Origin: Natrinema zhouii | GTDB lineage: Archaea > Halobacteriota > Halobacteria > Halobacteriales > Natrialbaceae | Assembly (NCBI RefSeq): GCF_013456555.2 | Contig: NZ_CP059154.1 | Coordinates: 496,001-560,000 of the forward strand | Length of the DNA stretch: 64,000 nt | Direction of reading: 5' to 3' | Shown: positions 6,351 through 63,533 of the stretch, piece after piece | Numbering within the stretch: position 1 is the stretch's first letter | Layout: each line of letters starts with the position of its first letter | The notes under the pieces: model-generated | Databases searched by the model: none | What the model saw: the letters and a program-made list of their open reading frames with translations, nothing else | What the model was told of the DNA's origin: nothing | Translations under genes and position numbers: made by a program

Positions 6351-6375
6351 TCGTCGCAGTGAGAATCGATCGCCG

Positions 6376-7125
6376 TTAGGGAAGCGTCACCGCATCGAGA
6401 TCGATGCGGTTCGGTTCGGGAACCGACTCGAGAGGTTTGCTCGAGACGGCAAAATCTCCCCGTTCGACCATCCGTTCCTCCTCGTTGTCCGGGAGTACGA
6501 TCACGCCCTTTGCCAGCAACGGCGCGAGTATGCCCGCCGCCACGGTCCGGGGGTCAGACAGCGGCGCTCGAACGACGACGCGATCGTCCGTCTCGAGCCC
6601 GGTCTCTTCGAGCACCGCGTGTGCGGCCTCGAGCAATTGTCCGTGCGTAACGGTTCGCTCACCGTCGGTCAGGATCGCCGTCTCGGGATCGATAGTTAGC
6701 GGCGGAAACGACGGGTTTTCGGTCCAGATGCCGGCGTCGAAGTGGTGGACGTCCGGCGCGTCGGGGTTCGATCCGTAGCCGACGCGCTGTGCGCCACGCG
6801 GGAGGTCGTACTCCTCGAGGGCCGAAACGGGTGCGACGAGGGCCCGAAAGTCGTCCGCGTCCGCGAGGTCAGTCGGCGGCTCGAAACGGGTGGTTCCCTC
6901 GAGTAGCGTCGTCCCGAAGAAGGCGAGCAGGGCGAGCGGGCCGTCGCCGACGACGCCGACGGTGACGCCCTCGCGAACGCCCGCGTGGCGCAGGAAGTTC
7001 CCGGCCTGCCACGAGGAGGTACACAGCCAGTGGTAGTCGTACTCCCGACCCGTCGCGTCGACGAGTCCGATCCGGTCGTCGCGGAGCTCCCGGGTGAACA
7101 GCTCGTCGACCGTCCCAGCGTTCAT
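6376..7125 (-). CDS. AMP-ligase-like protein lacking most of the family fold
   Basis: The 249-residue product resembles the acyl-CoA synthetase/AMP-binding family only in part: DATGREYDYHWL looks like the N-terminal domain start, and TDGERTVTHGQLLEAAHAVLEETGLETDDRVVV repeats the same kind of motif. The full enzyme is 500-650 residues; the P-loop-like adenylation motif and C-terminal lid are not seen. It may bind a ligand without catalysis, or be a degraded ligase. ATG 7125 is preferred over the upstream start at 7185. It is followed by, and probably unrelated to, the DJ-1 gene. Confidence 0.6.
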   Translation of the reverse strand: MNAGTVDELFTRELRDDRIGLVDATGREYDYHWLCTSSWQAGNFLRHAGVREGVTVGVVGDGPLALLAFFGTTLLEGTTRFEPPTDLADADDFRALVAPVSALEEYDLPRGAQRVGYGSNPDAPDVHHFDAGIWTENPSFPPLTIDPETAILTDGERTVTHGQLLEAAHAVLEETGLETDDRVVVRAPLSDPRTVAAGILAPLLAKGVIVLPDNEEERMVERGDFAVSSKPLESVPEPNRIDLDAVTLP

Positions 7126-7212
7126 ACTCGAGACTGGGCACCGGGGCGGAAAAAGGACGCCGACTCGCGTCGCCGGCGTCGCCATCGCAACCCGCCGTAC
7201 GGCGGGCTGAGG

Positions 7213-7806
7213 TCAGTCGTCCGCGGCCGCCGGCTCTGCGTGGTCGATGTCCGTCCCGAGACACTCGAGGAACTGCGCGAGCCACTCGGGGTGGTCCGGC
7301 CACGCCTGTCCCGTTACGAGATTTCCATCGCGCGTGACGCCGTCTTCCCAGGTGCCGCCCGAGATCCGGACGTCCGCCTCGAGGGCCGGATAGCCGGTAC
7401 AGGTCCGTCCCTCGAGCACGTCCGCCGCGGCGAGGATCTGGATTCCGTGACACAGCGCCGCGACCGGTTTGTCCGCCTCGAAGAAGTGGCGGGTTATCTC
7501 GAGCACCTCGTCGTACGTTCGGAGGTACTCGGGTGCGCGCCCGCCCGGAACGACGAGCGCGTCGTAGTCGGCGGGATCGATGTCCTCGAAGTCGTGGTTT
7601 AGTTCGAATTGGTGCCCCGGCTTCTCGGTGTAGGTCTGGTCGCCCTCGAAGTCGTGGATAGCGGTCGGACAGGTGTCCCCGGTTTCCTTCTCCGGACAGA
7701 CGGCGTGGACCTCGTGGCCGACCATCTGGAGCGCCTGAAACGGGACCATGATCTCGTAGTCCTCGACGAAGTCACCGGCGAGGAGCAGTATCTGTTGTGC
7801 TGACAT
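7213..7806 (-). CDS. DJ-1/PfpI family protein
   Basis: The 197-residue product has the DJ-1/PfpI nucleophile elbow VAALCHGIQ (Cys119-His120) and the conserved acidic residue near the N-terminus in [10 protein letters not shown]. Family members act as glyoxalase/deglycase-like or stress-protective proteins in the cytoplasm. The annotated ATG at 7806 begins [16 protein letters not shown], directly before the first strand; an upstream in-frame start at 7836 is less likely. The exact substrate is unknown. Confidence 0.9.
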
Positions 7807-7977
7807 GGGTATCCTCGTCCGATCGTTCGGTCGCAACAGCCATAGTCTATGCTGTACGATACCGTAACACTCATAACAGCAGCCAACCCGCTCCCTCGAC
7901 CGCTCGAGGGCGGCTGCTCGAGCGAAATCGCGTGACGAGTGTCCGAGAGGTGAATCACTCGAGCGCCGTCAGTCTCC

Positions 7978-45172: not shown

Positions 45173-47260
45173 CTATTCCTCGAGCGAGAAGACGGCGATC
45201 GTGTTGCCCTCCTCCTCGACCTGATTCCCGCCACCGCCGGGAATCGCAACGTACTGTTTCCCTTCGTTCGGGTCGTACCAGCTCATGGGCGCGCCGTCGA
45301 CGCCGTGATCGCCGACCTCGTGAGCGGCCAAGTATTCGCCCGTCTCGGTATCGAAGGCGTGGAGCTGTCCGGTCGGGCCGCCGGCGAAGGTTACACCCGT
45401 CGCGGTCGTCAGCGAGCCGCCCCACGGCGGTCCGGCTCGCCAGCTGAACCAGTTCTGCCACTTCACGTCGCCGGATAGCGGATCGATTCCAGCGATGACG
45501 CCGGCCATCTGGTTCCACTCTGGCACTTCCTCGTCTGCGAACTGTTGGGTCTCTTCGTCTTCTTCCTCCTCCTCTTCCTCTTCTTCCGCTCCGTCGTCCC
45601 CCTCCTCTTCGTCGGTTTCATTTCGCTCCTGTTCCTCCTCGTGTAATTTGTCCCCGCCGTCCTCCGTCTCGTTACCGACGGTATCCGTTTCGTTGCCGAG
45701 GGTATCCGTCTCGTTTCCGATAGCTTCGGTCTCGTTTCCGATTGCCTCCGTCTCGTTGCCAGCGGCGTCCGTCTCGTTCCCGGGCGTCTCGTCGCCCTCT
45801 CGTTGCTCGCCGACTTCCGCCTCGTCCGCGTCCGCCGTTTCTTCGTCTTCGGGCGTCTCGTCGCCCTCTCGCTGTTCGCCCTCCTCCGCATCGACCGGCT
45901 CCGTCTTTCGCACGGTGTCCATCCCGATATAGGTCGTTCCGGGCTCGTACTCCACCTCGAACCAGGAGAACTTGATCGGGTAGTTGGTCCCTTTGACGAC
46001 TAACGTCTGCGTCTCGGGATCGTACGCGCTGGGCTGTGGATTGGTCCCACCGATGAGGTCCGGCATGATCCAGGGCGCGCTCTCGAGGTCGTCGTACGGC
46101 GGCAGATTGAACGTATTGAGGTGCTGGACGTACTCGTCGCTGCGCTGATGGAGTTGCCCGGTCTCCATGTTTACCGTGTACACCCAGCCCGTCTTGCCGG
46201 GCCACGTCGCGAATTTCTGCGTCTCGCCGTCGACGTCCGCCTCGAAGACGACCGGCGGACTCGGCGAGTCGTAGTCCCACCAGTCGTGAGGCGAGTCCTG
46301 GTGGTGCCACTGGTACTCGCCGTCAGAGGCGTTGACGGCGACTTTGCCACAGGAGTAGGGGTTGTATCCGGGCCGGACGGTTCCGTACCACGGGCCGGGG
46401 TTGGCCGACGGGATAACGACCGATCCGTTTTCCGGCTCGATCGCACCGGACGCCCAGGCGGTCGCGCCGCCGTGCTGCCAGGAGTCACCGACCCACTCGT
46501 GTTCCGGCGTCATGTTGACGCGCCACTGCGGATTCCCCTCGAGATCGATCGCGTCGAAGAAGCCGCTGACCCCGAACTCGCCGCCGAAACTGCCCTTCAT
46601 GAGCATCCCGTCGTAGATCAGCGGTGGGAACGACGACGTTGTGCCCCGCGACCGCTCCCATCGGAGCTCTTCGTGCATAACGTCGTCAGCGACTTCGCCG
46701 CGATAGGCGGCCGCGCCGTTGTAGTACCACCGCTCTTCGCCGGTGTAGCGGTCGATCGCGATGACGCCCAGATCGAGCGTGCTCTTGTAGATCGTGTCAC
46801 CGAGCACGGCAGGGCCTCGTTCGGCGGGCGGCGTCTCGTCGGACGCACCGACGACGGGTTCGTAGAAGTGCGTCCACAGGAGTTCGCCCGTTCGCGCGTT
46901 GATCGCGTACAGCATGTCCGGCCCGACCGTCGTGTACATGATCGGCGGATCGCCGTCCACGACGATCGGCGAGCCCTGGAAATCGTTGGGATCGTCCGCG
47001 ACCTCGAGTCGATACTCGGCCTCGAGTTGATCGACGTTCTCCGGCGTAATCACGTCGGCCGTCGTGTGGCGCTGGGCCTCGTAGGAGCCGCCCATGATGA
47101 GCCAGTTGGTCGGCTCCTCGCCCGTCTGGGCGAGGTCCTCCTCGGTAACGTCCACTTCGGGTATCTGGTCGATATTGCCCTGTTCGATTACTGATTCGCC
47201 CGGTTTTTCACTCCACGGTGCGTCCTCTGGCAGGTCGATGAGGTGAGATTCGTACGTCAT
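45173..47260 (-). CDS. PQQ-type quinoprotein dehydrogenase with NET-rich insert
   Basis: The 695-residue protein has propeller units with W-motifs (RTGELLWTHFYEP, YTGEERWYYNG, VTFAGGPTGQLHAFDTETGEYL) of membrane/periplasm PQQ alcohol/glucose dehydrogenases, plus DSPHDWWDYDSPSPP with the probable catalytic Asp. An insert of about 130 residues (470-600) is acidic and carries seven NET sequons (N-glycosylation sites) as GNET repeats and a Glu run. No signal peptide is visible (MTYESHLIDLPEDAPW). The gene lies 15 bp after a Tat-signal protein gene, so the pair is cotranscribed. PQQ synthesis genes are not in this window. Confidence 0.88.
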   Translation of the reverse strand: MTYESHLIDLPEDAPWSEKPGESVIEQGNIDQIPEVDVTEEDLAQTGEEPTNWLIMGGSYEAQRHTTADVITPENVDQLEAEYRLEVADDPNDFQGSPIVVDGDPPIMYTTVGPDMLYAINARTGELLWTHFYEPVVGASDETPPAERGPAVLGDTIYKSTLDLGVIAIDRYTGEERWYYNGAAAYRGEVADDVMHEELRWERSRGTTSSFPPLIYDGMLMKGSFGGEFGVSGFFDAIDLEGNPQWRVNMTPEHEWVGDSWQHGGATAWASGAIEPENGSVVIPSANPGPWYGTVRPGYNPYSCGKVAVNASDGEYQWHHQDSPHDWWDYDSPSPPVVFEADVDGETQKFATWPGKTGWVYTVNMETGQLHQRSDEYVQHLNTFNLPPYDDLESAPWIMPDLIGGTNPQPSAYDPETQTLVVKGTNYPIKFSWFEVEYEPGTTYIGMDTVRKTEPVDAEEGEQREGDETPEDEETADADEAEVGEQREGDETPGNETDAAGNETEAIGNETEAIGNETDTLGNETDTVGNETEDGGDKLHEEEQERNETDEEEGDDGAEEEEEEEEEDEETQQFADEEVPEWNQMAGVIAGIDPLSGDVKWQNWFSWRAGPPWGGSLTTATGVTFAGGPTGQLHAFDTETGEYLAAHEVGDHGVDGAPMSWYDPNEGKQYVAIPGGGGNQVEEEGNTIAVFSLEE
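45601..45784 (-). repeat. NET-sequon linker in the quinoprotein gene
   Basis: It has GNET units at 7-residue spacing (AIGNETE, AIGNETD, LGNETDT, VGNETED) followed by GGDKLHEEEQERNETDE. It is related to 44606-44735 on the opposite strand; together they form a long imperfect inverted repeat about 1 kb apart. Confidence 0.75.
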
Positions 47261-50595: not shown

Positions 50596-50617
50596 TGCTC
50601 CGTCTGGGATTTGAACC
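50596..50617 (-). repeat. Partial tRNA-Glu 3' end, exact 22-bp copy
   Basis: tgctccgtctgggatttgaa plus cc matches 50721-50742 exactly. It lacks the other half of a tRNA. With the copy at 49361 it marks two likely attachment sites to the left of the intact gene. Confidence 0.75.
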
Positions 50618-50695
50618 ACGCGAAGACGTTCCTGCTCGCTCACTTCGTTCGCTCGCGGGCTGCGACGTCTCTGATTCAAATCACAGAGCGTCCGC

Positions 50696-50720
50696 TTTTT
50701 GCTCACTTCGTTCGCAAAAA
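50696..50720 (-). terminator. Hairpin terminator after tRNA-Glu
   Basis: tttttgc (50696-50702) and gcaaaaa (50714-50720) can pair across an 11-base loop; on the minus strand the run of T after the tRNA 3' end fits an archaeal U-rich terminator. Confidence 0.5.
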
Positions 50721-50795
50721 TGCTCCGTCTGGGATTTGAACCCAGGTCATCGGCTCGAAAGGCCGAAATGATTGGCCGGACTACACCAACGGAGC
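50721..50795 (-). tRNA. tRNA-Glu (anticodon UUC)
   Basis: The minus strand folds as a complete cloverleaf: acceptor GCTCCGT paired with ACGGAGC, D-arm with GGTGTAGTCCGG, anticodon stem TCGGC/GCCGA with loop CTTTCGA (anticodon TTC), and T-arm GGGTTCAAATCCC; the discriminator is A. No CCA is encoded. Decodes GAA and GAG. Its 3' end is a favoured site for integrase attachment, and two partial copies lie to the left. Confidence 0.95.
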
Positions 50796-50958
50796 GATCA
50801 CGCTGTTCTCGCACCGAGGCTCGCTTCACTACGTTCAGCGACCCACCGGAGCGATCCGTCACACGCGCTGTGTGCAACTGGTCGTTGCCGGGGGCTAGTA
50901 AAAAGGGTTCCGTTCCGGGCTGGGGATGGCACACTATCACGCACGCGTCCAGTTTCGC

Positions 50959-52344
50959 TCACGACTGCCGAAGTGACGACCCCTCGAGCGACATCGAGAG
51001 CTCCCCCTCGAGCCCGAGTAAATCCACGATCGTCGGCGTCACGTCCGTCGCGTCGACCGGTCCGTCGCCCTCGAGTTCGGGCGCTGCTGGTCCGCCGAGG
51101 CCGAAACAGCCGTAGGCGGATTCGTCGACGCGGCCGTGGGAGCCACTCACCTGTGAGGCGTCCAGCGAGACGAGTCCCTCGTCGCCGAAGAACAACTCAC
51201 AGGGGTCGAAGCCGGGTTTGGCATGGATGTCCATCTCGGTCGCGTACGGCGGCGCGTTCGCGCGGTCGTCCCACCAGTAGTACTGGAACCAGGCGTCAGG
51301 ATCCGCGACGAGGACGAGGTCACCCGCGTTCGGGTGGTCGATCCCGCGCTCGGCCTTCCCCGAGTCGTCGAGCACCGCGTCGATACCCTCGAGCCCCGCG
51401 AGCGCATCGCGAGCGGCGTCGACCGCTCCCTCGGCGTAGATGTGTGCGATCTGGTGGTCGACCATCGCGAACGCGTCCGAACCGCCGATGTCGGCGTCGC
51501 CGTCCGCGTCCGTCTCGAGCAGCCCGGCCTCCCGAAGCGCGCGGTTGGGGAATATCGGTCGATCCACCTCGTGAAACCCGTACTCGCTGACGAGGGTGAG
51601 GACCGTCTCGTCCCAGCGGTCCGTTTCCGAGAGGTCGGCGAGGAACCCCTCGAGGAGGTCGTCGACGGTCTCGAGTGCCGTCGCGAAGGCGTCGCTGCCG
51701 GGGCCGTCGCTCTGTCCGGCGTAATCCAGGTGGGGGACGTAGATCCACAGCAGGTCGGGATCGAACCGGTCGATCGCCTCGCGTGCTGCCGCGAGGATCC
51801 AGCGGCTCCCCTCCTCGTTCGCACCGGGCCCCCAGTAGTTGTGCAGCGGGAAGTGGCCGAGTTCCTCGTGGAGGTCATCGTAGAAGCCGTCGGGATTCGT
51901 CCAGCAGTTCATTTCGAGGAGGTTGTTGTCCTCGTCCTCGATCGGTGACGGCGTGACCGCCACGTCGGCGCTCGTCCCGATCAGGTGCTGGAAGTTCAGC
52001 GCGCCGGTGGTCAGCCCAGCCACGTCGCTCGCGGTCTCCCAGATCCGGTCGCGACCGTCGCGGTCGCGCTCCCAGAACTCGGCGGTTTCTCGCTCGCGGT
52101 CGTATTCGCCGCTCGAGACGTCGCCGTGCTCGCTGGGACCGCGCCCGGTCGCGAGGGTGGTCTGAGCCGGAACCGTGACGGCGGGAAACGGTGGTCTGAG
52201 GCCGGTCACGCGTTCGCTTGAGAAGTGCGACTCGAGCGTCGGCGTTCGGTCGGCGTCGATGTGCTGGGGCTGGAGGCCGACGACGTCGAGGACGATCGTT
52301 CGGCCGGCCATCTGGGCCGTCTCGGGAATCGTGGGTGCAGTCAT
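50959..52344 (-). CDS. Alkaline phosphatase/nucleotide pyrophosphatase family protein
   Basis: The 461-residue protein has the metal and nucleophile site TIVLDVVGLQPQHIDADRTPTLESHF and FPAVTVPAQTTLATGRGPSEHG, where Thr is the expected nucleophile, and ends in a VDATDVTPTIVDLLGLEG stretch with VSGSHGRVDESAYG. It is a nucleotide pyrophosphatase/phosphodiesterase-type enzyme of the alkaline phosphatase superfamily. No signal peptide is seen. It lies 54 bp after the inositol-phosphate synthase gene on the same strand, so they form an operon. ATG 52311 is an alternative start. Confidence 0.87.
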   Translation of the reverse strand: MTAPTIPETAQMAGRTIVLDVVGLQPQHIDADRTPTLESHFSSERVTGLRPPFPAVTVPAQTTLATGRGPSEHGDVSSGEYDRERETAEFWERDRDGRDRIWETASDVAGLTTGALNFQHLIGTSADVAVTPSPIEDEDNNLLEMNCWTNPDGFYDDLHEELGHFPLHNYWGPGANEEGSRWILAAAREAIDRFDPDLLWIYVPHLDYAGQSDGPGSDAFATALETVDDLLEGFLADLSETDRWDETVLTLVSEYGFHEVDRPIFPNRALREAGLLETDADGDADIGGSDAFAMVDHQIAHIYAEGAVDAARDALAGLEGIDAVLDDSGKAERGIDHPNAGDLVLVADPDAWFQYYWWDDRANAPPYATEMDIHAKPGFDPCELFFGDEGLVSLDASQVSGSHGRVDESAYGCFGLGGPAAPELEGDGPVDATDVTPTIVDLLGLEGELSMSLEGSSLRQS

Positions 52345-52398
52345 GGGATCTCAGGGGCGTGTCGGGATGCAACGGGAATCGGTGGGGATCGTTGCGTC

Positions 52399-53619
52399 TC
52401 AGCGATGCTCCTCGGCGTAGTCGTACAGTCGGTCCAGCTGCCGGGAGAAGTCGTGCTCGTCGACGCCGAGCGGGGCTTTGAAGAACGACGCGAGCTGGGG
52501 CTGAAGCCCGCCGTCGCCGTGTTCGTCGGCGTGGGAAATCAGCCGCACCAGATCGAGCACGAGCGGCGCGGCAAGCGCGGAGTCCGACCCTTCCCACGTG
52601 AACTGCATCTTCATCTCCGTCTCGAGGAAGCCCTCGAAGTGGATGTAGTCCCAGGCCGTCTTCCAGTCGGCCAGCGAGGGCGTGTAGTCGATCCGGACCC
52701 GGTTGTGACCGATATCGGGGAGGATCGAATCGAGCACGTCGCCCTTGCTCGCGAGCTTGCCGGCGGCGTTCGCCTCGTCCTCGAGAACGAGGCCGTCCTT
52801 GTTGCCGAGGATGTTGTGGCCCTCCCAGCTCATGACTCGCAGGTTGCGGCCGGCGAACATGGGCGCGAGCGCGGACTTGACGAGCGTCTCGCCGGTCTTC
52901 GCGTCGCGTCCCATGTGCGGAACCTCGGTTTCGGCCGCGAGTTCGCGGACTCCCCCGAGCGTGTTGGCCGTACTCGGCGTGAAGTTGACGAACGGATGTC
53001 CGCTGGATATCGCGGCGTAGGCGTAGAGGACGCTGGCGGGAAGGTCGCGGTCGTCCTCGTCGATCGCTCGCTCGAGCGCGTCGCGCGTGTCGTAGCGGTC
53101 CGACTCCGCCAGTTCGGGTTCCGTCGAGGCGACGTTGACGACGACGAGTCGCTCGAGGTCGTGGCTATCGCGGAACGTCTCGTAGTCGTCTCGGATCTGG
53201 TCGACGACGTCCCGAATGGACAGGTCTTCGGCGAGCTGTTCGCTGTCCTCGGAGACGGCGGCACCGCAGTTGACTGCCGTGCCGACCTCGATCCGCTCGT
53301 CGATCGCGGCCAGATCATCTCGAACCGCCTCGAGCGTGTCGGCGTCCGGAACGCCGTTTCGATCGCGCTGGCGTTCGGCCTGCGCGACGAGTGACTCCGG
53401 TTCGATGTCGTGGCCCCCGAAGACGAATCCCTCGACGGGCGGGAGCTCGAGGTTCGAAACCGTATCGCGCTCGGTGACCATCCCAGTGGTGTCGGTCGCT
53501 CCCTGAGCGATGGCGCGAGCGCCGACGATCGACATCGTCGCGACGTTTCCGCGTGCCCCCACGAGCCAGACCCCCGTTCGATCCGCGTCGTCGACCGCTG
53601 GATGTTCCCCGTGGCTCAT
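52399..53619 (-). CDS. Inositol-3-phosphate synthase family protein
   Basis: The 406-residue protein has the NAD Rossmann motif VWLVGARGNVAT and the central family sequence GRDAKTGETLVKSALAPMFAGRNLRV, followed by SWEGHNILGNKDGLVL. It makes inositol 3-phosphate from glucose 6-phosphate in the usual family, or a related cyclised sugar phosphate. Archaeal members can feed archaetidylinositol or osmolyte synthesis. The gene is followed by the phosphatase-type gene, so the product may be dephosphorylated. ATG 53619 overlaps the stop of a small upstream frame. Confidence 0.92.
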   Translation of the reverse strand: MSHGEHPAVDDADRTGVWLVGARGNVATMSIVGARAIAQGATDTTGMVTERDTVSNLELPPVEGFVFGGHDIEPESLVAQAERQRDRNGVPDADTLEAVRDDLAAIDERIEVGTAVNCGAAVSEDSEQLAEDLSIRDVVDQIRDDYETFRDSHDLERLVVVNVASTEPELAESDRYDTRDALERAIDEDDRDLPASVLYAYAAISSGHPFVNFTPSTANTLGGVRELAAETEVPHMGRDAKTGETLVKSALAPMFAGRNLRVMSWEGHNILGNKDGLVLEDEANAAGKLASKGDVLDSILPDIGHNRVRIDYTPSLADWKTAWDYIHFEGFLETEMKMQFTWEGSDSALAAPLVLDLVRLISHADEHGDGGLQPQLASFFKAPLGVDEHDFSRQLDRLYDYAEEHR

Positions 53620-53741
53620 CGGGTCTCATCCCCTCCCGACGGCCGCTCGGTCCGGACTGTCGACGCGCGTTCACCCGTCCCCTTCTCGGGATCGATCCAC
53701 AGCGGGTTCGTCACTGCCGTCGCTCGTTCGATCAGCGTCAT
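53616..53741 (-). CDS. Possible 41-residue small protein, coupled to the synthase gene
   Basis: A short frame, starting MTLIERATAVTNPLWIDPEK, ends TGA in the ATGA overlap with the synthase ATG, a form typical of translational coupling. I do not recognise it; it may be a chance frame. It is not homologous to any family I know. Confidence 0.35.
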   Translation of the reverse strand: MTLIERATAVTNPLWIDPEKGTGERASTVRTERPSGGDETR

Positions 53742-53921
53742 TCCTGCGACCGTGGGGGCCGAACGGCTTTCGTTATGACTCGCGTAGCGGGAGTAACACG
53801 GTTTTGATCGCTCGTAACGCCGTATTCCGCCGCAGAGAGGTGTTGATTCACCATCATCAACCTCGGGTTTGGCGATCGAACGATCACAGCACCAAACCGT
53901 CGGGTCGTGGGACGGCAGAAT
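53742..53921. other. Divergent promoter region between two operons
   Basis: No gene. It includes the promoters for the synthase/phosphatase pair (minus) and the hydrolase/isomerase/prenyltransferase trio (plus). An AT-rich part is near 53767-53800. Confidence 0.45.
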
Positions 53922-54722
53922 ATGCGGATTATCGATCCTCACATGCACATGGTATCGCGCTCGGCCGACGACTACCGACGAGCGCGGCGGGCGGGTATCG
54001 AGTGCTGTATCGAGCCCGCGTTCTGGAGCGGCCAGGACAAACACCACGCGGGTGCCTTCTTCGACTACTTCGAACAGATCATCGAACACGAGACCGACCG
54101 TGCCGAGCGGGCCGCCGGGATGGACCACTACGTGACGATCGGGCTCGAGCCGAAGGAAGCGAACTACCGCGAGATGGCCGAGGAGGTCGTCGACCGGATC
54201 CCGGAGTACCTCGAGCGCGACCCCGTCGTCGGCGTCGGCGAGATCGGCTTCGATCAGGTGACCGACGACGAGGAGTGGGCGTTCCGCCGCCAGCTCGAGA
54301 TCGCAGAGGAGCGCGAACTCCCTGTCATCGTCCACACGCCGCACACGGACAAGCCGTCGGGCACCGAGCGGATCGTCGAGATCATCGAAGAGATGGGCGT
54401 CACGCAGGAACGGATCATTATCGACCACAACACGGAGAATACGATCGACATTTCGACGCGAACGGACTGCTGGATCGGCTTCACGCTCTACCCGGGCAAG
54501 ATCGAGACCGAGTCGGCGATCGACCTGCTCGAGGAGTACGGCACCGACAACATGATCTTCAACAGCGCCGCGGACTGGGACCCCTCGGATCCGCTGGCGG
54601 TGCCAAAAGCACGTGACCAGATGCTCGACCGGGGCTGGGATCGCGAGGAGGTCCGCAAGGTCGTCTTCGAGAACCCCTACGAGTTCTTCGACCAGTCGCC
54701 GAACTTCGACTACGAGGCCTGA
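53922..54722 (+). CDS. TatD-family metal-dependent hydrolase
   Basis: The 266-residue product starts MRIIDPHMHMVSR, the HxH metal site of TatD-type (amidohydrolase) barrels. Other sites are GVGEIGFDQV, the VIVHTPHTDKPSG histidine strand and IIDHNT. It lacks features of a nuclease tail. The gene is first of three packed genes; the next ATG is 3 bp after its stop. In the bacterial ebo cluster a TatD homologue has the same company. The start at 53922 is preferred to 53907. Confidence 0.87.
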   Translation: MRIIDPHMHMVSRSADDYRRARRAGIECCIEPAFWSGQDKHHAGAFFDYFEQIIEHETDRAERAAGMDHYVTIGLEPKEANYREMAEEVVDRIPEYLERDPVVGVGEIGFDQVTDDEEWAFRRQLEIAEERELPVIVHTPHTDKPSGTERIVEIIEEMGVTQERIIIDHNTENTIDISTRTDCWIGFTLYPGKIETESAIDLLEEYGTDNMIFNSAADWDPSDPLAVPKARDQMLDRGWDREEVRKVVFENPYEFFDQSPNFDYEA

Positions 54723-54725
54723 CTC

Positions 54726-55556
54726 ATGCAGTTCGGCTTCTCCACCAACGCCTTCCGGGAGTATCAACTCGAGGACGCGATCGAGGCCATCGCCGACGCG
54801 GGCTACGACGGCGTCGAACTACTGCTCGACGAGCCCCACCTCTATCCACCGAACGCAACCGACGAAGAACGCGAACGCGTCGAAGAGGTCCTCGATACGC
54901 ACGGAATCGCCGTCAGCAACGGCAACGCGTTCATGCTGACCGCGATCGAGGGCTTTCACCATCCCTCCTACATCGAACCGGACGAGGAGTACCGCCAGAA
55001 GCGAATCGACTACACCCTCGCGGCGCTCGAGACCGCGGCCGACCTCGGACTGCCCTACATCTCGATCGAACCCGGCGGGCCGATTCCCGACGGAAAGTCC
55101 CGCGAGTGGGCGATGGACACCTTCGTCGAGAGTCTCGAGCAAGTCATCCCGACGGCCGAGGCAGTCGGCGTCGACCTCCTCGTCGAGCCCGAACCGGACC
55201 TCCTGATCGAGACCGGCGACGAGTTCCTCGCGCTCCTCGAGCGAGTCGATTCCGAGCGCGTGAAGTGCAACTTCGACGCGGGCCACTTCTACTGCGTCGG
55301 CGAGGATCCGGCCGAACTCGTCGAACCGCTCTGGGAGCACACGAGACACTACCACCTCGAGGACATCCCAGCCGACCGGACCCACGAACACACCCAGCTC
55401 GGCGACGGCGCGATGGACATCGACGCCTTCCTCGGCGAACTCGAGGACCGGGGCTACGACGGCTTCGTCACCGTCGAACTCTACCCCTACGAGGAGACGC
55501 CGATCGAGACCGCGCGGGAGGCGATGGCCTACCTCGAGGAACGCGGGTGGGCGTAG
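54726..55556 (+). CDS. Sugar-phosphate isomerase/epimerase-like TIM barrel
   Basis: The 276-residue protein has the AP-endonuclease-2/xylose-isomerase-like TIM fold: FGFSTNAFREYQLEDAIEAIADAGYDGVELL at the first strand, DLLVEPEPDLLIET, NFDAGHFYC and YHLEDIPADRTHEHTQLGDG with metal-binding Glu/His/Asp. It is 3 bp after the hydrolase and 1 bp before the UbiA gene, so the three are cotranscribed. The ebo cluster contains a TIM-barrel (EboE-like) of this type. A paralogue is at 61042. Confidence 0.88.
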   Translation: MQFGFSTNAFREYQLEDAIEAIADAGYDGVELLLDEPHLYPPNATDEERERVEEVLDTHGIAVSNGNAFMLTAIEGFHHPSYIEPDEEYRQKRIDYTLAALETAADLGLPYISIEPGGPIPDGKSREWAMDTFVESLEQVIPTAEAVGVDLLVEPEPDLLIETGDEFLALLERVDSERVKCNFDAGHFYCVGEDPAELVEPLWEHTRHYHLEDIPADRTHEHTQLGDGAMDIDAFLGELEDRGYDGFVTVELYPYEETPIETAREAMAYLEERGWA

Positions 55557-55557
55557 G

Positions 55558-56589
55558 GTGGCCGGCGGGGTGTCGTCGGATCGAAACGGGAACGCGGGGT
55601 CGGATGCAGAGGCGGAGGCGGACGCAGACGCGGAGGCGGACACAATCGACGGCGAGGGTGAGGGCGAATCCGAACCCGAACGAGGCCTGCAGGCGACCCT
55701 CGGGGCGTTCGCCGAACTGGTCCGCATGCCGAACCTCTTCACCGCACCGCCGGACGTGATCCTCGGGGCCGCACTGGTGAGCGTCGCCGGCTCCGATTTC
55801 GTCCCAGCCACTGTCGCCGGACTCGCGATCGCTTCCGTTTGCCTCTACGCGGGAGGAACGACCCTCAATGACGCGTTCGACGCGCCCATCGACGCTCGAG
55901 AACGGCACGAACGCCCGATTCCCTCCGGTCGCGTGTCCCGGCGCGCCGCGTTCGGACTCGGATTCGCGCTGCTGCTCGTCGCCGTCGGGATCGCGTTCGT
56001 CGTCGCCGGCGGTCCCGCTGCCGTCGCCGCCGGACTGGTCGCCGTCGCGATCGTCGCCTACGACGGCCTTCTGAAGGGAGCCGCCGCCGGCTTCCTCGCG
56101 ATGGGTGCGACGCGCGGGCTGAACGTCCTGCTGGGTACGACTGCGGCCGGAAGCGCGGTGCTCGAGTCCCCGCTCCGACTGCTCGCCGTTCCCGCGGTCA
56201 TCACCGGCTACGTCGCCGCCGTCACGTTCATGGCGGCTCGAGAGACCGAGGGTGGCAACCGAGGTGCCGTCGCGGTCGCCGCTGCGGGTGCGGTTGCAGC
56301 AGTGCTCGCCGTCGGCTGGTACCTCGTCGCTGTCGGTCCGACCGCGCTCGAGGCGGTAGTCGCGACCGCGTTTGCCGTTGCCTTCTGCTGGTGGGTCAGT
56401 CGTCCCCTGCGAGCCGCGTACGCCGATCCGGTACCGAGTACCGTCGGGCCGGCGGTCGGCGCGTGCGTCCTCGGACTCGTGTTGCTCGACGCGGCCTTCG
56501 CCACCGCAGCGGGGGTTCGCTGGGGACTTGCTGCCGGCGTCTTTCTCATTCCGGCGGTTGGTCTCTCGCACGTCTTCGACGTGACGTGA
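55558..56589 (+). CDS. UbiA-family prenyltransferase
   Basis: The 343-residue protein has an acidic N-terminal stretch (residues 8-42), then 8-9 helices. Its first catalytic motif is LNDAFDAPIDARERHERPIPSGR (N104, D105, D108, D112) and a second Asp is in YDGLLKG. It transfers an isoprenoid to an acceptor within the membrane. Third in the packed plus-strand operon; the gene starts with GTG 55558. An EboC-like role (lipid-linked sugar or small molecule) is possible. The acidic tail is unusual for the family. Confidence 0.9.
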   Translation: MAGGVSSDRNGNAGSDAEAEADADAEADTIDGEGEGESEPERGLQATLGAFAELVRMPNLFTAPPDVILGAALVSVAGSDFVPATVAGLAIASVCLYAGGTTLNDAFDAPIDARERHERPIPSGRVSRRAAFGLGFALLLVAVGIAFVVAGGPAAVAAGLVAVAIVAYDGLLKGAAAGFLAMGATRGLNVLLGTTAAGSAVLESPLRLLAVPAVITGYVAAVTFMAARETEGGNRGAVAVAAAGAVAAVLAVGWYLVAVGPTALEAVVATAFAVAFCWWVSRPLRAAYADPVPSTVGPAVGACVLGLVLLDAAFATAAGVRWGLAAGVFLIPAVGLSHVFDVT

Positions 56590-56888: not shown

Positions 56889-59800
56889 ATGAGCGATCAA
56901 GCAGGGGCTCCAGGGGGCGGATTTTGGGCGGACGCTGCCGGCGAACGTGCACTCGATCGCTACTCTACGCTCATTAATATGATCGACGACGGCATCTACC
57001 AGCTTGACGCCGAGGGGCGGTTCGTCGCGGTTAACGACACCATCGTTGAATTAACGGGCTACTCTCGAGAGGATCTCCTCGGCGAGCACGCGTCACTTGT
57101 GCTCATCGACGAGGACGTCAGTCGTATCCAGCACGAGATCGTCCGGCGGCTCACTGACGACCGCCAGAACGAGGCTATCGAGTTCACAGCCTTGACGGTT
57201 GACGGCAACACAATCCCATGCGAGTTGGAGATGCACCTCCTCGTCGAGAATAGAACGTTTCAGGGGTCCATAGGGGTTGTGCGCGACATCACCGAGCGCA
57301 AGCAGGCGGAACGTGAACTCCGACAGGAACGCGATCTCGTCAAAGGAATCGTCGAGACCAGCCCCATCGGAATCGCGGTCATCGACGCCGATGGCGAGGT
57401 GACCTTCGCCAATGAGCGCGCCGAGGAGATATACGGTCGCTCCCGCGACGAACTCGGCGGTTTCTCCCACGACGACCCTCGCTGGGATCTCGTCAATGAG
57501 AACGGTGAGCCGCTTGAGACCGGGGAAGCACCGTTCGACCGTGTGGTCACGGAGGAAGAGGCGATCTACAATCAGGTCCTCGGCCTTCGCAAGCCCTCCG
57601 GTGAGCGCGTGTGGCTGGCAGTCAACGGTGCCCCGCAACAGAACGAAGACGATGAACTGGAACAGGCCGTATTCGCGTTCGAGGATGTGACTGAGCAACG
57701 CGAGAACGAGCGCAAACTCGAGAAGAGCGAGCGTCGGTACCGGACGCTCGTCGAGAACTTCCCGAATGGATCGGTAGGAATGTTCGACGAGGACATGCGG
57801 TACACCGCCGTTGGTGGACAGCTCTTGAAGACGCTCGATATGGAGCCGGAGGACCGAATCGGGAGCACCATCCACGAACTCCATCCGGACAGTCTCGTCG
57901 AACAAATCGAGCCATACTTTCAGGGCGCACTCGAGGGAGAGGCCGATACCTTCGAGATCGAGTTCGGGAGCCGACACCTCCACGCGCACGCTCTCCCGGT
58001 CAGAGACGCCAAAGACGAGGTGTTCGCCGGCATGATCGTCGTCTGGGATGTCACCGAGCGCAAGGATCGCGAACGCGAACTCGAGCGAAATAAAGAACAG
58101 TTCGAGACTCTGTTCGAAGTGATCCCAGTCGGTGTCGTCGTCGCGGAGGCTGACGGGGAGATAATCGAGGCCAACGATACTGCACACACTATCTGGGGCG
58201 GGGACGTGTTCGATGCCGACTCCATCGAGGAGTACGACCAGTACCCAGTGCGATGGGCTAATTCGGGCGAGCCGGTGCCCCCGGAGGAGATGACGCTGGC
58301 CCGCGTAGTCGATGGCGAGGAAGTGACCGAGCCAGACATCTTCGAGATCGACACCGCTGACGGCAAACGACGGATCATCCGAGCGGAGGGCATGCCGATC
58401 CGGGACAAGACTGGCAAGGTGACCCGCGGAGTCGTCACCCTGAGCGACATTACCGAGCGTAAGGAGGCCCAGCGTCAGCTCGCAGAATCTGAGCGACTCT
58501 ACCGCACATTGGCCGAGCACTTTCCAAACGGGACGGTCGGCGTCTACGACCACGACCTCCGGTACACGCTGGCGGCAGGGGAGAAAGTGGGTGATCCCGC
58601 ACCCAGCGCAGAGGAAGTCGAAGGGACACGAATGCCAGAGCTATACCCCGACGATGCCGTGGCGGATCTCGAGCCGTTGTTCCGGACTGCCATCGAAGAC
58701 GGCGAGACCGGAACCATCGAAACCGAGGTCGTCGGTCGTGACTGGCGGGTGTGGGCCACGCCGTTACGGGATGCGGACGGCGAGATATACGCCGGACTGA
58801 GCTTCGCCCAAGATATCACCGAGCGCAAGGAGCACGAACGCGAACTTGAACGGGCACTCGACTTGCTCGAGCGGACTGAGCGCATCGCGGACGTCGGCGG
58901 CTGGGAGATCGATCCGCAGACCCAGGACGTGTTCTGGACCGACCACATCTTCGAACTCCTGGAGGTGCACACCGATGAGGAACCGCCCCTGGACGAGGCC
59001 CTCGACATGTACCACGAAGCGGACAAACCGATAGTCGAGGAGGCCGTTGAGGACGCGCTCGCCTCCGGCGACCCCTTTGATATCGAGGTACGGCTCCGGA
59101 CAGCAGCCACCGATGAAATACGCTGGCTTCGACTTCAGGGGGCTCCGGAGACCGTCGGCGATAAGGTCGTCTCGTTCCGCGGGGCGGCTCAAGACATCAC
59201 CGAACGTAAACAGCGCGAGCAGCGACTCAAAGAACTGATCGACAAGCTCGAGGAATCCAACGAACGCCTCGAACAATTCGCCTACGCCGCCTCCCACGAC
59301 CTCCAAGAACCCCTGCGGATGGTCTCGAGCTATCTCCAGCTGCTAGAAAATCGCTATGCTGACGACCTCGACGAAGACGCGCAGGACTTCATCGAGTTCG
59401 CGGTCGACGGCGCCGACCGAATGCGCAACATGATCGAGGGGCTCCTTCAGTACTCACGAGTCGAGACACGGGGTGACAACTTCGAGTCAGTCGAACTGGA
59501 CGCCGTCGTCGCGGACGTCTGTGATGATCTTCAAGTTCGGATCAAGGAGACCGACACTGAGATCACCGCTGACTCGCTGCCCCGTGTTGACGGAGACGAG
59601 GGGCAGTTGCGTCAAGTGTTCCAGAACCTGCTGGACAACGCCATTGAGTACAGCGGCGATGAACCGCCCAAGGTGGATATCTCAGCCGAGCGAAACGGGG
59701 CTAAATGGGTTATCTCGGTCAGCGACGAGGGGATCGGTATCGAGCCGAAAGACGCCGACCGCGTCTTCGAGGTGTTCCAGAGCCTCCACACCCCAGACGA

Positions 59801-59942
59801 ACACTCCGGTACCGGGGTCGGGCTCGCGTTGTGCGAGCGCATCGTCGAGCGCCACGGCGGCGACATCTGGATTGACTCCGTACCTGGCGAGGGGACGACA
59901 TTCTCGTTCACACTCCCTGTGGCGAGTGGCCAGAAGAGATAG
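56889..59942 (+). CDS. Six-PAS sensor histidine kinase
   Basis: The 1017-residue protein contains six PAS/PAC units, each ending in a DITERK-like sequence (residues ~135, 265, 390, 515, 640, 780), then a HisKA domain with YAASHDLQEPLRMV (His803) and an ATPase domain (LLDNAIEYSGDEPP, DEGIGIEPKD, GTGVGLALCERIV). No membrane helices: it is cytoplasmic. It senses a small ligand, redox or light through PAS. SHDLQEPLR kinases are of the type that pair with Rcp1-like receivers; candidates in this window are at 22650 and 34869. No regulator is adjacent. Confidence 0.95.
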   Translation: MSDQAGAPGGGFWADAAGERALDRYSTLINMIDDGIYQLDAEGRFVAVNDTIVELTGYSREDLLGEHASLVLIDEDVSRIQHEIVRRLTDDRQNEAIEFTALTVDGNTIPCELEMHLLVENRTFQGSIGVVRDITERKQAERELRQERDLVKGIVETSPIGIAVIDADGEVTFANERAEEIYGRSRDELGGFSHDDPRWDLVNENGEPLETGEAPFDRVVTEEEAIYNQVLGLRKPSGERVWLAVNGAPQQNEDDELEQAVFAFEDVTEQRENERKLEKSERRYRTLVENFPNGSVGMFDEDMRYTAVGGQLLKTLDMEPEDRIGSTIHELHPDSLVEQIEPYFQGALEGEADTFEIEFGSRHLHAHALPVRDAKDEVFAGMIVVWDVTERKDRERELERNKEQFETLFEVIPVGVVVAEADGEIIEANDTAHTIWGGDVFDADSIEEYDQYPVRWANSGEPVPPEEMTLARVVDGEEVTEPDIFEIDTADGKRRIIRAEGMPIRDKTGKVTRGVVTLSDITERKEAQRQLAESERLYRTLAEHFPNGTVGVYDHDLRYTLAAGEKVGDPAPSAEEVEGTRMPELYPDDAVADLEPLFRTAIEDGETGTIETEVVGRDWRVWATPLRDADGEIYAGLSFAQDITERKEHERELERALDLLERTERIADVGGWEIDPQTQDVFWTDHIFELLEVHTDEEPPLDEALDMYHEADKPIVEEAVEDALASGDPFDIEVRLRTAATDEIRWLRLQGAPETVGDKVVSFRGAAQDITERKQREQRLKELIDKLEESNERLEQFAYAASHDLQEPLRMVSSYLQLLENRYADDLDEDAQDFIEFAVDGADRMRNMIEGLLQYSRVETRGDNFESVELDAVVADVCDDLQVRIKETDTEITADSLPRVDGDEGQLRQVFQNLLDNAIEYSGDEPPKVDISAERNGAKWVISVSDEGIGIEPKDADRVFEVFQSLHTPDEHSGTGVGLALCERIVERHGGDIWIDSVPGEGTTFSFTLPVASGQKR

Positions 59943-61041: not shown

Positions 61042-61890
61042 ATGGTCGAACTCGCTTTCTCGACGAATGCGTACACGCGTCACTCGCTCCCCGAAGCTGT
61101 CCGCCGGATCGCCGACCACGGCTACGCCGGCGTCGAACTGCTCGGCGACGACCCTCACGCCTACTTCCCCGACTTCGAGGACGCCGATCGCGACGCGCTG
61201 CTCGAGGCCCTCTCGAACACCGACCTCGCCGTCTCGAATATCAACGCGAACACGGCGATGGGCTACTACGACGACGCGCCGCCGTCGGCGTTCTTCGAGC
61301 CGAGCGTGATCCGTGCCGACGACGAGGCCCGCGAGTGGCGCGTCGAGTACACGAAGCGAGCGATCGACCTCGCCGAGACGGTCGACTCGCCGGCGATCTG
61401 TCTGGCGACCGGCCGTCCCCTCCCGGGAACGGCGCCCGAGGAAGCCCGCGACTACCTCCGCGAGTCGCTCCACGAGATCCTCGACTACGCCGAGGCCCGC
61501 GATGTGGAGGTCGGCATCGAGTTCGAACCCGAACTGCTGATCGAGAACACCCACGAGGTGCTCGAGTTGATCGACGAGATGGGCCGGGACTCGCTGGGCG
61601 TCAACCTCGACGTCGGCCACGCGGCCGTCTACGGCGAGGACGTGACCGAAAGCATCCGCGCCAGCGCCGGCTCCATTACGGGGGTTCACCTCGAGGACAT
61701 CGTCGGCGGCCGCCGTGGAAAGCACTATCACCGGATCCCCAGTGACGGAGACCTCGACTTTCGGACGATATTCGACGCCCTCGCGGACATCGGCTACGAC
61801 GGGTTCGCCACGCTCGAGCTCTACACCTATCCCGACGAACCTGACCGAGCGGCGCGGGAGGCGTTCGAGGCGCTCGAGGAGTACGTGTAG
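61042..61890 (+). CDS. Sugar-phosphate isomerase/epimerase-like TIM barrel, second paralogue
   Basis: The 282-residue protein shares the order and motifs of the gene at 54726: LAFSTNAYTRHSLPEAVRRIADHGYAGVELL, EPELLIENTHEVLELI, NLDVGHAAVYGE and HLEDIVGGRRGKHYHR. It starts at ATG 61042; the upstream ATG 61012 would add a non-conserved decapeptide. It probably acts on a sugar phosphate or related metabolite in the cytoplasm. It is followed by an FAH-family gene 100 bp downstream. Loss or change of the ebo-like neighbours distinguishes it from the first copy. Confidence 0.87.
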   Translation: MVELAFSTNAYTRHSLPEAVRRIADHGYAGVELLGDDPHAYFPDFEDADRDALLEALSNTDLAVSNINANTAMGYYDDAPPSAFFEPSVIRADDEAREWRVEYTKRAIDLAETVDSPAICLATGRPLPGTAPEEARDYLRESLHEILDYAEARDVEVGIEFEPELLIENTHEVLELIDEMGRDSLGVNLDVGHAAVYGEDVTESIRASAGSITGVHLEDIVGGRRGKHYHRIPSDGDLDFRTIFDALADIGYDGFATLELYTYPDEPDRAAREAFEALEEYV

Positions 61891-61960
61891 CGTCCCCACC
61901 TGCCAGACCCACCATCGGCTCATCGGTTCGAACACCCTCAAGCGCGCCGCCTTCTCAATC

Positions 61961-61970
61961 CTTTTTACCC
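61961..61970 (+). promoter_or_regulatory. TATA-like box of the FAH-family gene
   Basis: ctttttaccc centred about 26 bp upstream of ATG 61991 is a usable archaeal TATA variant. Confidence 0.45.
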
Positions 61971-61990
61971 CCTGCGACCATCCATCGACT

Positions 61991-62728
61991 ATGAAATACG
62001 TCCGATTCCGAGACCCGGCCGGCGCAGTTCGCCGCGGCGAGTACGAGAACGGCACCGTTCACTTCGCGAACGAGAGTTACAGCCTCGAGAGCGACGAGAT
62101 CGACGTTCTGCCGCCGTCGGAGCCCTCGAAGATCGTCTGTATCGGGAAGAACTACGCCGACCACGCGGCGGAATTCGACTCCGAACTCCCCGACCGACCG
62201 ATGCTCTTCCTGAAGCCGCCGAACGCGCTCGCGGCCCACGGCGACACCGTTACCCTGCCCGCGGGCAAGGAGCGAATCGATCACGAGGCGGAACTCGGCG
62301 TCGCCATCGGCGAGCAGTGTCGCCACGTCCCCGAAACCGACGCGATGGACGTCGTCGAGGGCTTTACCTGCGTCAACGACCTCTCGAACCGCGACGACCA
62401 GAATCGGGAACAGAACTGGATCCGCGGCAAGGCCTTCGACGGTGCCGCGCCGATGGGGCCCGTCCTCGCGACTCCCGACGAAGTCCCCGCGGATGCCGCC
62501 GTCCGGACTCGCGTCAACGGCGAGACGAGACAGGACGGCTCCCGCGAACAACTTGCGTTCTCGATCCCCGAACTGATCGCCGAGATCACGACCTATCTCA
62601 CCCTCGAGCCCGGCGACGTGATCGCGACCGGCACGCCCGAGGGCGTCGGCCCGCTCGCTGACGGCGACGAGATCGAGATCGAAGTCGAGGGCGTCGGCAC
62701 GCTCGAACACTCGGTCCGCATCCCCTGA
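61991..62728 (+). CDS. Fumarylacetoacetate hydrolase (FAH) family enzyme
   Basis: The 245-residue product has the FAH metal and catalytic motifs: IVCIGKNYADHAAE, FLKPPNAL, DHEAELGVAIG (Glu/Asp metal ligands) and EPGDVIATGTPEGVG. Enzymes of this type split C-C bonds or decarboxylate small keto acids. The substrate cannot be told. ATG 61991 begins MKYVRFRDPAGA; the frame extends upstream but lacks similarity. A TATA-like box is 26 bp upstream. Confidence 0.92.
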   Translation: MKYVRFRDPAGAVRRGEYENGTVHFANESYSLESDEIDVLPPSEPSKIVCIGKNYADHAAEFDSELPDRPMLFLKPPNALAAHGDTVTLPAGKERIDHEAELGVAIGEQCRHVPETDAMDVVEGFTCVNDLSNRDDQNREQNWIRGKAFDGAAPMGPVLATPDEVPADAAVRTRVNGETRQDGSREQLAFSIPELIAEITTYLTLEPGDVIATGTPEGVGPLADGDEIEIEVEGVGTLEHSVRIP

Positions 62729-62828
62729 GCGCTACTCCGTTCCCGGTGTCCGCCCTCGGCCCGCGATCGATCCGATCCGAGGCGATCGGAGTGGAACGCT
62801 TTTCGGCCCGCTTGAGAAACGGTCTCGC

Positions 62829-63533
62829 ATGACCGTCCGATTCGACGCGGTGACCGCCGACTGGTTCGGCCACGCGGCCGTCCGACTCGAGGGGCAAACC
62901 GGCACAGTCGTCTATCTGGATCCCGATCCCGAAGAGTACGGCGTTCTCGATGGGCTCGAGCCCCGTGACGGCGATCTGATTCTCGTCTCCCACGATCACC
63001 ACTACGATCCCGAGTCGATTCGACGCGTCGCTCGCGAGGACGCGCTGGTCGTCGTTCACGAGTCGATCGACGCGAGCGAGATCGGCCGCGTCGACGAGCG
63101 ACCGGAAGCGCTCCCGTTCGCGGTCGAACGCGTCGCCGCCGACGAGTCGTTCGTCCTCGGGCCGCTCGATCTGTTCACGACGCCGGCGTACAACGATCCG
63201 GACGGTCCACACACCGACGAAAACGGAACGCCGTCCCATCCCGAGGGGCGGGGCTGTGGCTTCGGCGTCACCATCGACGGCATCACCGCGTTCTGGCCCG
63301 GTGACACCGACGTGCTTCCGGTTCACGAGGACGTTCCGGTCGACCTCTTCCTCCCGCCGATCGACGGTACGTCAACGATGGATCGCCACGAAGCGGCGGC
63401 GCTGGCCGACCGCCTCGAGCCTGATCTCGTGCTTCCGGTTCGCTACGATCCCGCCGCGGCGACCGAAATTGACGTCGACGCGTTCGTCGTCGACGTTGCG
63501 CACCGGGGCGTTCCGGTCGTCCTCGACGAGTGA
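62829..63533 (+). CDS. MBL-fold metallo-hydrolase (UlaG-like)
   Basis: The 234-residue protein has the metallo-beta-lactamase site SHDHHYDPESI, a histidine in PSHPEGRGCGFG and FWPGDTDVLP with an Asp ligand. It is the UlaG-like type that hydrolyses phosphoester or lactone bonds. The gene has no close partner; it is 100 bp after the FAH gene. Cytoplasmic. Confidence 0.88.
   Translation: MTVRFDAVTADWFGHAAVRLEGQTGTVVYLDPDPEEYGVLDGLEPRDGDLILVSHDHHYDPESIRRVAREDALVVVHESIDASEIGRVDERPEALPFAVERVAADESFVLGPLDLFTTPAYNDPDGPHTDENGTPSHPEGRGCGFGVTIDGITAFWPGDTDVLPVHEDVPVDLFLPPIDGTSTMDRHEAAALADRLEPDLVLPVRYDPAAATEIDVDAFVVDVAHRGVPVVLDE

Follow-up and report, generated by a model that had tools for sequence, protein, structure and literature searches.

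The 64,000-nucleotide stretch of the Natrinema zhouii genome analyzed here (contig NZ_CP059154.1, positions 496,001 to 560,000; hereinafter the window, from whose first letter all coordinates are counted) carries an ebo-type gene cluster in which an inositol-3-phosphate synthase, Ino1, appears to occupy the place of the canonical cyclase EboD. On the minus strand lie the genes for an EboF-like protein of the alkaline-phosphatase superfamily (461 amino acids (aa), 50959–52344; a full Phosphodiest domain, PF01663, 157 bits) and, 54 bp away, Ino1 (406 aa, 52399–53619; NAD_binding_5, PF07994, 167 bits, and Inos-1-P_synth, PF01658, 112 bits). On the plus strand, the gene for an EboB-type TatD-family hydrolase (266 aa, 53922–54722; TatD_DNase, PF01026, 73 bits) is followed after 3 bp by that for a TIM-barrel epimerase/isomerase-like protein (TIM1; 276 aa, 54726–55556; AP_endonuc_2, PF01261, 166 bits), and this after 1 bp by that for an EboC-type UbiA-superfamily prenyltransferase (343 aa with a GTG start, 55558–56589; Pfam UbiA, 61 bits). 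The start of the TatD gene is most likely the ATG at 53922, in line with its homologs, rather than the GTG at 53907 with which the longest open reading frame (ORF) begins. Checks of the ORFs and Pfam searches bear out these five genes, with the coordinates and gaps given in a preliminary description of the locus. However, the set named there was not complete, as it had missed a sixth member, a second TIM-barrel protein (TIM2; 281 aa, 61045–61890, plus strand; PF01261, 150 bits) sharing about 39% identity with TIM1.

Taking a match at E<1e-20 as presence, the EboC-type UbiA is patchily distributed across the haloarchaea, being found in 26 of the 125 genomes of the window's family, 56 of the 391 genomes of the class and 19 of 86 genera. 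Our archaeal set comprises 60 loci, the window's own counted among them. The complete six-gene set stands together in 49 of these, and 45 show the same divergent layout, with EboF and Ino1 on one strand and TatD, TIM, UbiA and TIM2 on the other; hence, the grouping is not a matter of chance. The expected conservation of the neighborhood thus holds across haloarchaea, and related loci are also present in bacteria. TIM2 has an orthologue in 59 of the 60 loci, its usual position being about 100 bp after UbiA. Here the two are separated by the gene for a PAS-domain histidine kinase (1017 aa, 56889–59942, plus strand; Pfam PAS, HisKA and HATPase_c) that lies outside the conserved set, and a gap this long is unlike most archaeal clusters. 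A census of the neighbors in the 60 loci recovered a fumarylacetoacetate-hydrolase-family gene in 17, a metallo-hydrolase-like gene in 12 and housekeeping genes, with no additional gene as constant as the six; in the window, genes of the first two kinds follow TIM2 (61955–63533). In about 10 of the archaeal loci, the space between Ino1 and TatD holds a small zinc-finger ORF (a core of about 69 aa, MPE.CP.C...WRHPEETVLD..LDFS) that is oriented divergently to TatD, lies upstream of either ino1 or TatD, and is absent from the window. A similar zinc-binding small protein is encoded in Haloferax volcanii by HVO_B0212, a locus tag adjoining that of the Ino1 homolog HVO_B0213 (PMC8305020, PMC11241148).

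The closest solved structure to the window's Ino1 is the Archaeoglobus fulgidus enzyme (1u1i, E 3e-84). In addition to both fold domains, the cluster Ino1s have all six of the catalytic lysines and aspartates checked: D225, K274, K278, K306, D332 and K367 in A. fulgidus numbering are kept in 34 of 34 sequences (26 archaeal and 8 bacterial). This is the single Ino1 of the genome, which has no match to the 3-dehydroquinate synthase (DHQS) family (PF01761), and no member of that family was found in the 60 archaeal loci either. At the family level, Ino1 is present in 26/26 genomes with the EboC-type UbiA versus 1/99 without it (Fisher p 5e-26), and at the class level in 51/56 versus 2/335. Moreover, one genome keeps both genes 240 kb apart, showing that the link between them is functional and not merely positional. 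Five UbiA-positive genomes apparently lack Ino1, two of which (G359 and G392) carry a partial copy. In the Ino1 tree, the haloarchaeal and bacterial ebo-type sequences cluster together (support 94–95), with the exception of that from Gemmatirosa. These observations bear on the possibility that Ino1 supplies ordinary archaetidylinositol lipids and sits beside an unrelated TatD–TIM–UbiA operon by coincidence. Archaeal Ino1 commonly serves archaetidylinositol, the H. volcanii homolog is treated under polar-lipid head groups (PMC8305020) and the two operons are divergent. Nevertheless, such close tracking of UbiA is unexpected for a lipid head-group gene, and the same Ino1 clade recurs inside bacterial ebo operons; we regard this explanation as very unlikely.

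Searching 84,980 genomes with an EboB alignment yielded 80 named bacterial loci. Within the stretches fetched, a DHQS-family cyclase is present in 40 of these and Ino1 in 5, and the two never occur in one locus. Together with the lack of a DHQS-family protein in the window's genome, this upholds the earlier placement of Ino1 in the cyclase slot. However, the version with Ino1 is not peculiar to archaea: it is also found in three unrelated bacterial groups, namely in Actinobacteria including Streptomyces, on a plasmid of Gemmatirosa (Gemmatimonadota) and in a metagenome-assembled genome (MAG) of the Proteobacteria (L175). On a plasmid of Streptomyces sp. NBC_01362 (L104), the PGAP annotation gives the order Ino1–SCO3242 prenyltransferase–TIM–EboA–TatD–EboE–EboF, a gene set shared by other Actinobacteria, while Gemmatirosa has TatD–EboF–UbiA–Ino1–TIM. 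The haloarchaeal order TIM2–TatD–TIM–UbiA recurs in two bacteria, namely the Proteobacteria MAG and Paenibacillus phytorum (L141), where it continues with EboF, then an IolE-like protein and a DHQS-family cyclase. The latter cyclase, which with the IolE-like dehydratase adjoins the ebo-type cluster at 5866–7886 of that locus, has 2-deoxy-scyllo-inosose synthase as its closest solved relative (2d2x, E 3e-94), followed by DHQS (6e-43). Mapping the type of cyclase onto the EboB tree requires at least four changes. The evidence thus supports an exchangeable cyclase slot in ebo clusters, with the haloarchaeal Ino1 being part of a wider, recurrent replacement. Ino1 and 2-deoxy-scyllo-inosose synthase share glucose 6-phosphate as their starting substrate. 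EboD, in contrast, was taken by Yurchenko et al. (PMC5133447) to act on sedoheptulose 7-phosphate, and the ring itself may therefore matter more than its exact substitution. A different Ino1 clade is found on plasmids of Methylobacterium, Hymenobacter and Roseomonas (L108, L109 and L110); in the latter two, the annotated neighbors are YcaO-like, Gfo/Idh/MocA, sugar-isomerase and PIG-L deacetylase genes, while the Methylobacterium record carries no annotation. These clusters possibly represent another pathway for an inositol-derived metabolite.

Of the remaining components, the window's UbiA has the EboC model NF035940 as its best match in NCBIfam, followed by SCO3242 (163 bits, short of its cut-off of 260), and scores far lower against digeranylgeranylglyceryl phosphate (DGGGP) synthase (53 bits), the nearest solved relative of EboC. 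Across 60 archaeal and 54 bacterial EboC-type sequences, the first Asp-rich motif, NDxxDxxxD, is intact throughout, and the second is a single Glu in the archaeal and nearly all of the bacterial versions. The genome also encodes another UbiA-superfamily protein. We considered whether the clustered UbiA is itself the DGGGP synthase of this genome and rejected this, as that enzyme is encoded separately and has its second motif complete (KDVEDIEGD). The TatD protein is 43–46% identical to those of the bacterial ino1-type ebo loci, and the haloarchaeal versions form one clade inside the EboB tree. Its metal ligands (HxH, E, H, H, D) are kept, with D5, H7, H9, E106, H137, H170 and D220 being invariant in our alignment.

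Archaeal and bacterial EboF proteins have in common the signature LDYxxQ/SEYG/GSHG: the E and Y of SEYG are kept in 53/53 archaeal and 47/48 bacterial sequences, and LDY and SHG likewise. For the window's protein, the closest solved fold family is that of the nucleotide pyrophosphatases/phosphodiesterases (NPPs; 2gsn, E 6e-9). We compared EboF with the six metal ligands of the Xanthomonas enzyme, XacNPP, which we take to be numbered D54, D210, H214, D257, H258 and H363. In the alignment, D54 is replaced by V or another aliphatic residue, H214 by Q or L, D257 by E and H258 by Y, so that EboF keeps only D210 and H363 along with the nucleophile Thr90. As most of the metal ligands are lost, it is unlikely that EboF works as a conventional di-metal phosphatase or phosphodiesterase, whichever ebo cluster it comes from, and the earlier suggestion that the product is trimmed by a phosphatase becomes doubtful. 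Nor did the TIM-barrel protein hold up as a counterpart of EboE: both TIM1 and TIM2 score only about 24 bits against the EboE model NF035939, whose cut-off is 250. A custom EboE hidden Markov model (HMM) returned no archaeal hit better than 4e-7, leaving EboE not found in the archaeal loci, and a custom EboA HMM built from 50 sequences had no hit in any archaeal locus. Instead, TIM1 and TIM2 are weakly similar to models for fructoselysine 3-epimerase, IolO, IolE and hydroxypyruvate isomerase.

Taking together the gene content, linkage and co-occurrence, the Ino1 catalytic residues, the EboC and EboF signatures and the recurrent cyclase exchange, we propose that the cluster, on balance, probably encodes a haloarchaeal version of the ebo pathway with Ino1 in the place of EboD and a prenylated, lipid-anchored cyclitol as its outcome. 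The substrates and the order of steps that we infer are as follows. Ino1 would form myo-inositol 1(3)-phosphate by cyclizing glucose 6-phosphate; the cyclitol might then be reshaped by the epimerase/dehydratase-like TIM1 and TIM2, the TatD-type EboB and EboF; and the intramembrane UbiA-type EboC would prenylate it, by analogy with DGGGP synthase. As the latter enzyme attaches its prenyl group to a hydroxyl of glycerol phosphate, it is plausible that EboC O-prenylates inositol phosphate or a derived cyclitol. The predicted end product, a cyclitol joined to an isoprenoid, would be used at the membrane, as has been proposed for bacterial ebo. More tentatively, and with somewhat less than even confidence, we posit that ebo might be a general route to lipid-linked cyclitols whose cyclase can be exchanged, being of the DHQS, 2-deoxy-scyllo-inosose synthase or Ino1 type in different lineages, and that haloarchaea might make an undescribed prenylated inositol, an ether-linked isoprenoid cyclitol acting at the membrane.

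Alternatively, the epimerases, hydrolase and phosphodiesterase could serve the catabolism or salvage of compounds derived from inositol or sugars, in which case UbiA would be a membrane anchor or a degenerate enzyme. The resemblance of TIM1 and TIM2 to the IolO, IolE and hydroxypyruvate-isomerase models and the degenerate second Asp-rich motif of EboC would suit such a role. We consider it quite unlikely, however, given that Ino1 is a biosynthetic cyclase and the most diagnostic partner, that biosynthetic sugar-phosphate cyclases occupy the slot in other lineages, and that no inositol dehydrogenase or kinase recurred in the neighbor census, in which the neighbors were clustered and not all scanned by family. 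A further alternative draws on Nostoc punctiforme, in which ebo deletions block the export of the scytonemin monomer and a cyclitol-lipid carrier was suggested (PMC6282210). Under it, the cluster would have a role in export and the cyclitol-lipid would be a non-covalent carrier rather than the final metabolite. The census turned up no recurrent cargo gene cluster next to the archaeal loci, and an export role is compatible with, rather than exclusive of, a prenylated cyclitol; as the explanation of this locus we think it unlikely, though worth entertaining.

Several observations weigh against a prenylated cyclitol made by an ebo-type pathway. EboA and EboE are missing, and the match of UbiA to the EboC model, at 194.5 bits, lies under the curated cut-off of 250. 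The degenerate second Asp-rich motif might point to a role for EboC other than prenyl transfer, and the loss of most metal ligands leaves the EboF step obscure. In three near-complete genomes that keep the other cluster genes (G346, G366 and G399), neither Ino1 nor a DHQS-family cyclase was found, and a tree with all archaeal Ino1s in one clade is not rejected (approximately unbiased test, p-AU 0.22), so that an archaeal origin of the cluster Ino1 stays compatible with the data.

Two further features of the window lie at lower coordinates than the cluster. On the minus strand at 50596–50800, the final ~24 bases of a tRNA-Glu (50721–50795) recur about 100 bp downstream (GTGGTTCAAATCCCAGACGGAGCA), which looks like the scar of an integration site. 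The protein encoded at 45173–47260 was judged by eye to be pyrroloquinoline quinone-type dehydrogenase-like; it carries an insertion of NET-rich repeats together with an acidic stretch.

Yurchenko et al. proposed that ebo makes an isoprenoid–cyclitol compound (PMC5133447), an idea that gains support from the repeated swap to cyclases that turn a common sugar phosphate into six-membered cyclitols. The present cluster extends ebo-type clusters to the Archaea. As the Ino1 assay is cheap and well defined and labelled inositol is available, it also makes the question of the ebo product testable via the archaeal or actinobacterial version, and it cautions against taking EboF for an ordinary phosphatase, which it may not be. 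Inositol and archaeal ebo go unmentioned in the two main papers on ebo (PMC5133447, PMC6282210), and we found no description of an inositol-type or archaeal ebo cluster in the literature searched, which left out most subscription journals. For the SCO3242-type cluster, our literature and database searches returned only automatic annotation and NCBI family names.

With the canonical ebo clusters of bacteria and eustigmatophytes (eboA–F; PMC5133447, PMC6282210), the haloarchaeal cluster has in common the EboB and EboF types, a UbiA with the EboC motif pattern (NDxxDxxxD plus a reduced second motif), the tight clustering and the presence of a cyclase. It differs from them in having no EboA, EboD or EboE, in using Ino1 as the cyclase, in having two short TIM barrels in place of EboE, and in its archaeal host. 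Hence, the ebo relation first suggested stands for the EboB and EboF types and, with NF035940 as best match though under its cut-off, for EboC, the EboC and EboF signatures being shared; it does not extend to EboA, EboD and EboE. With these three lacking and EboC under its cut-off, the cluster is therefore not a canonical ebo operon, and on its sequence features is best filed as an ebo-type variant. The actinobacterial SCO3242-type cluster of Streptomyces L104 is alike in that Ino1 replaces EboD (identities of 45% for Ino1, 42% for UbiA, 46% for TatD, 38% for EboF and 31% for the short TIM barrel), but EboA and EboE are retained there, the genes form a single operon, and there is one short TIM barrel rather than two. 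That of Paenibacillus phytorum matches the order TIM2–TatD–TIM–UbiA and has an EboF, and EboA and EboE were not found there either; unlike the haloarchaeal cluster, it has a 2-deoxy-scyllo-inosose-synthase-like cyclase with an IolE-like dehydratase alongside. Lastly, the Ino1 of the archaetidylinositol pathway in A. fulgidus (AF_1794, 1u1i) belongs to the same enzyme family and has the same catalytic residues as the cluster Ino1, whereas the partners and distribution of the latter follow the ebo-type UbiA and not the lipid head-group genes.

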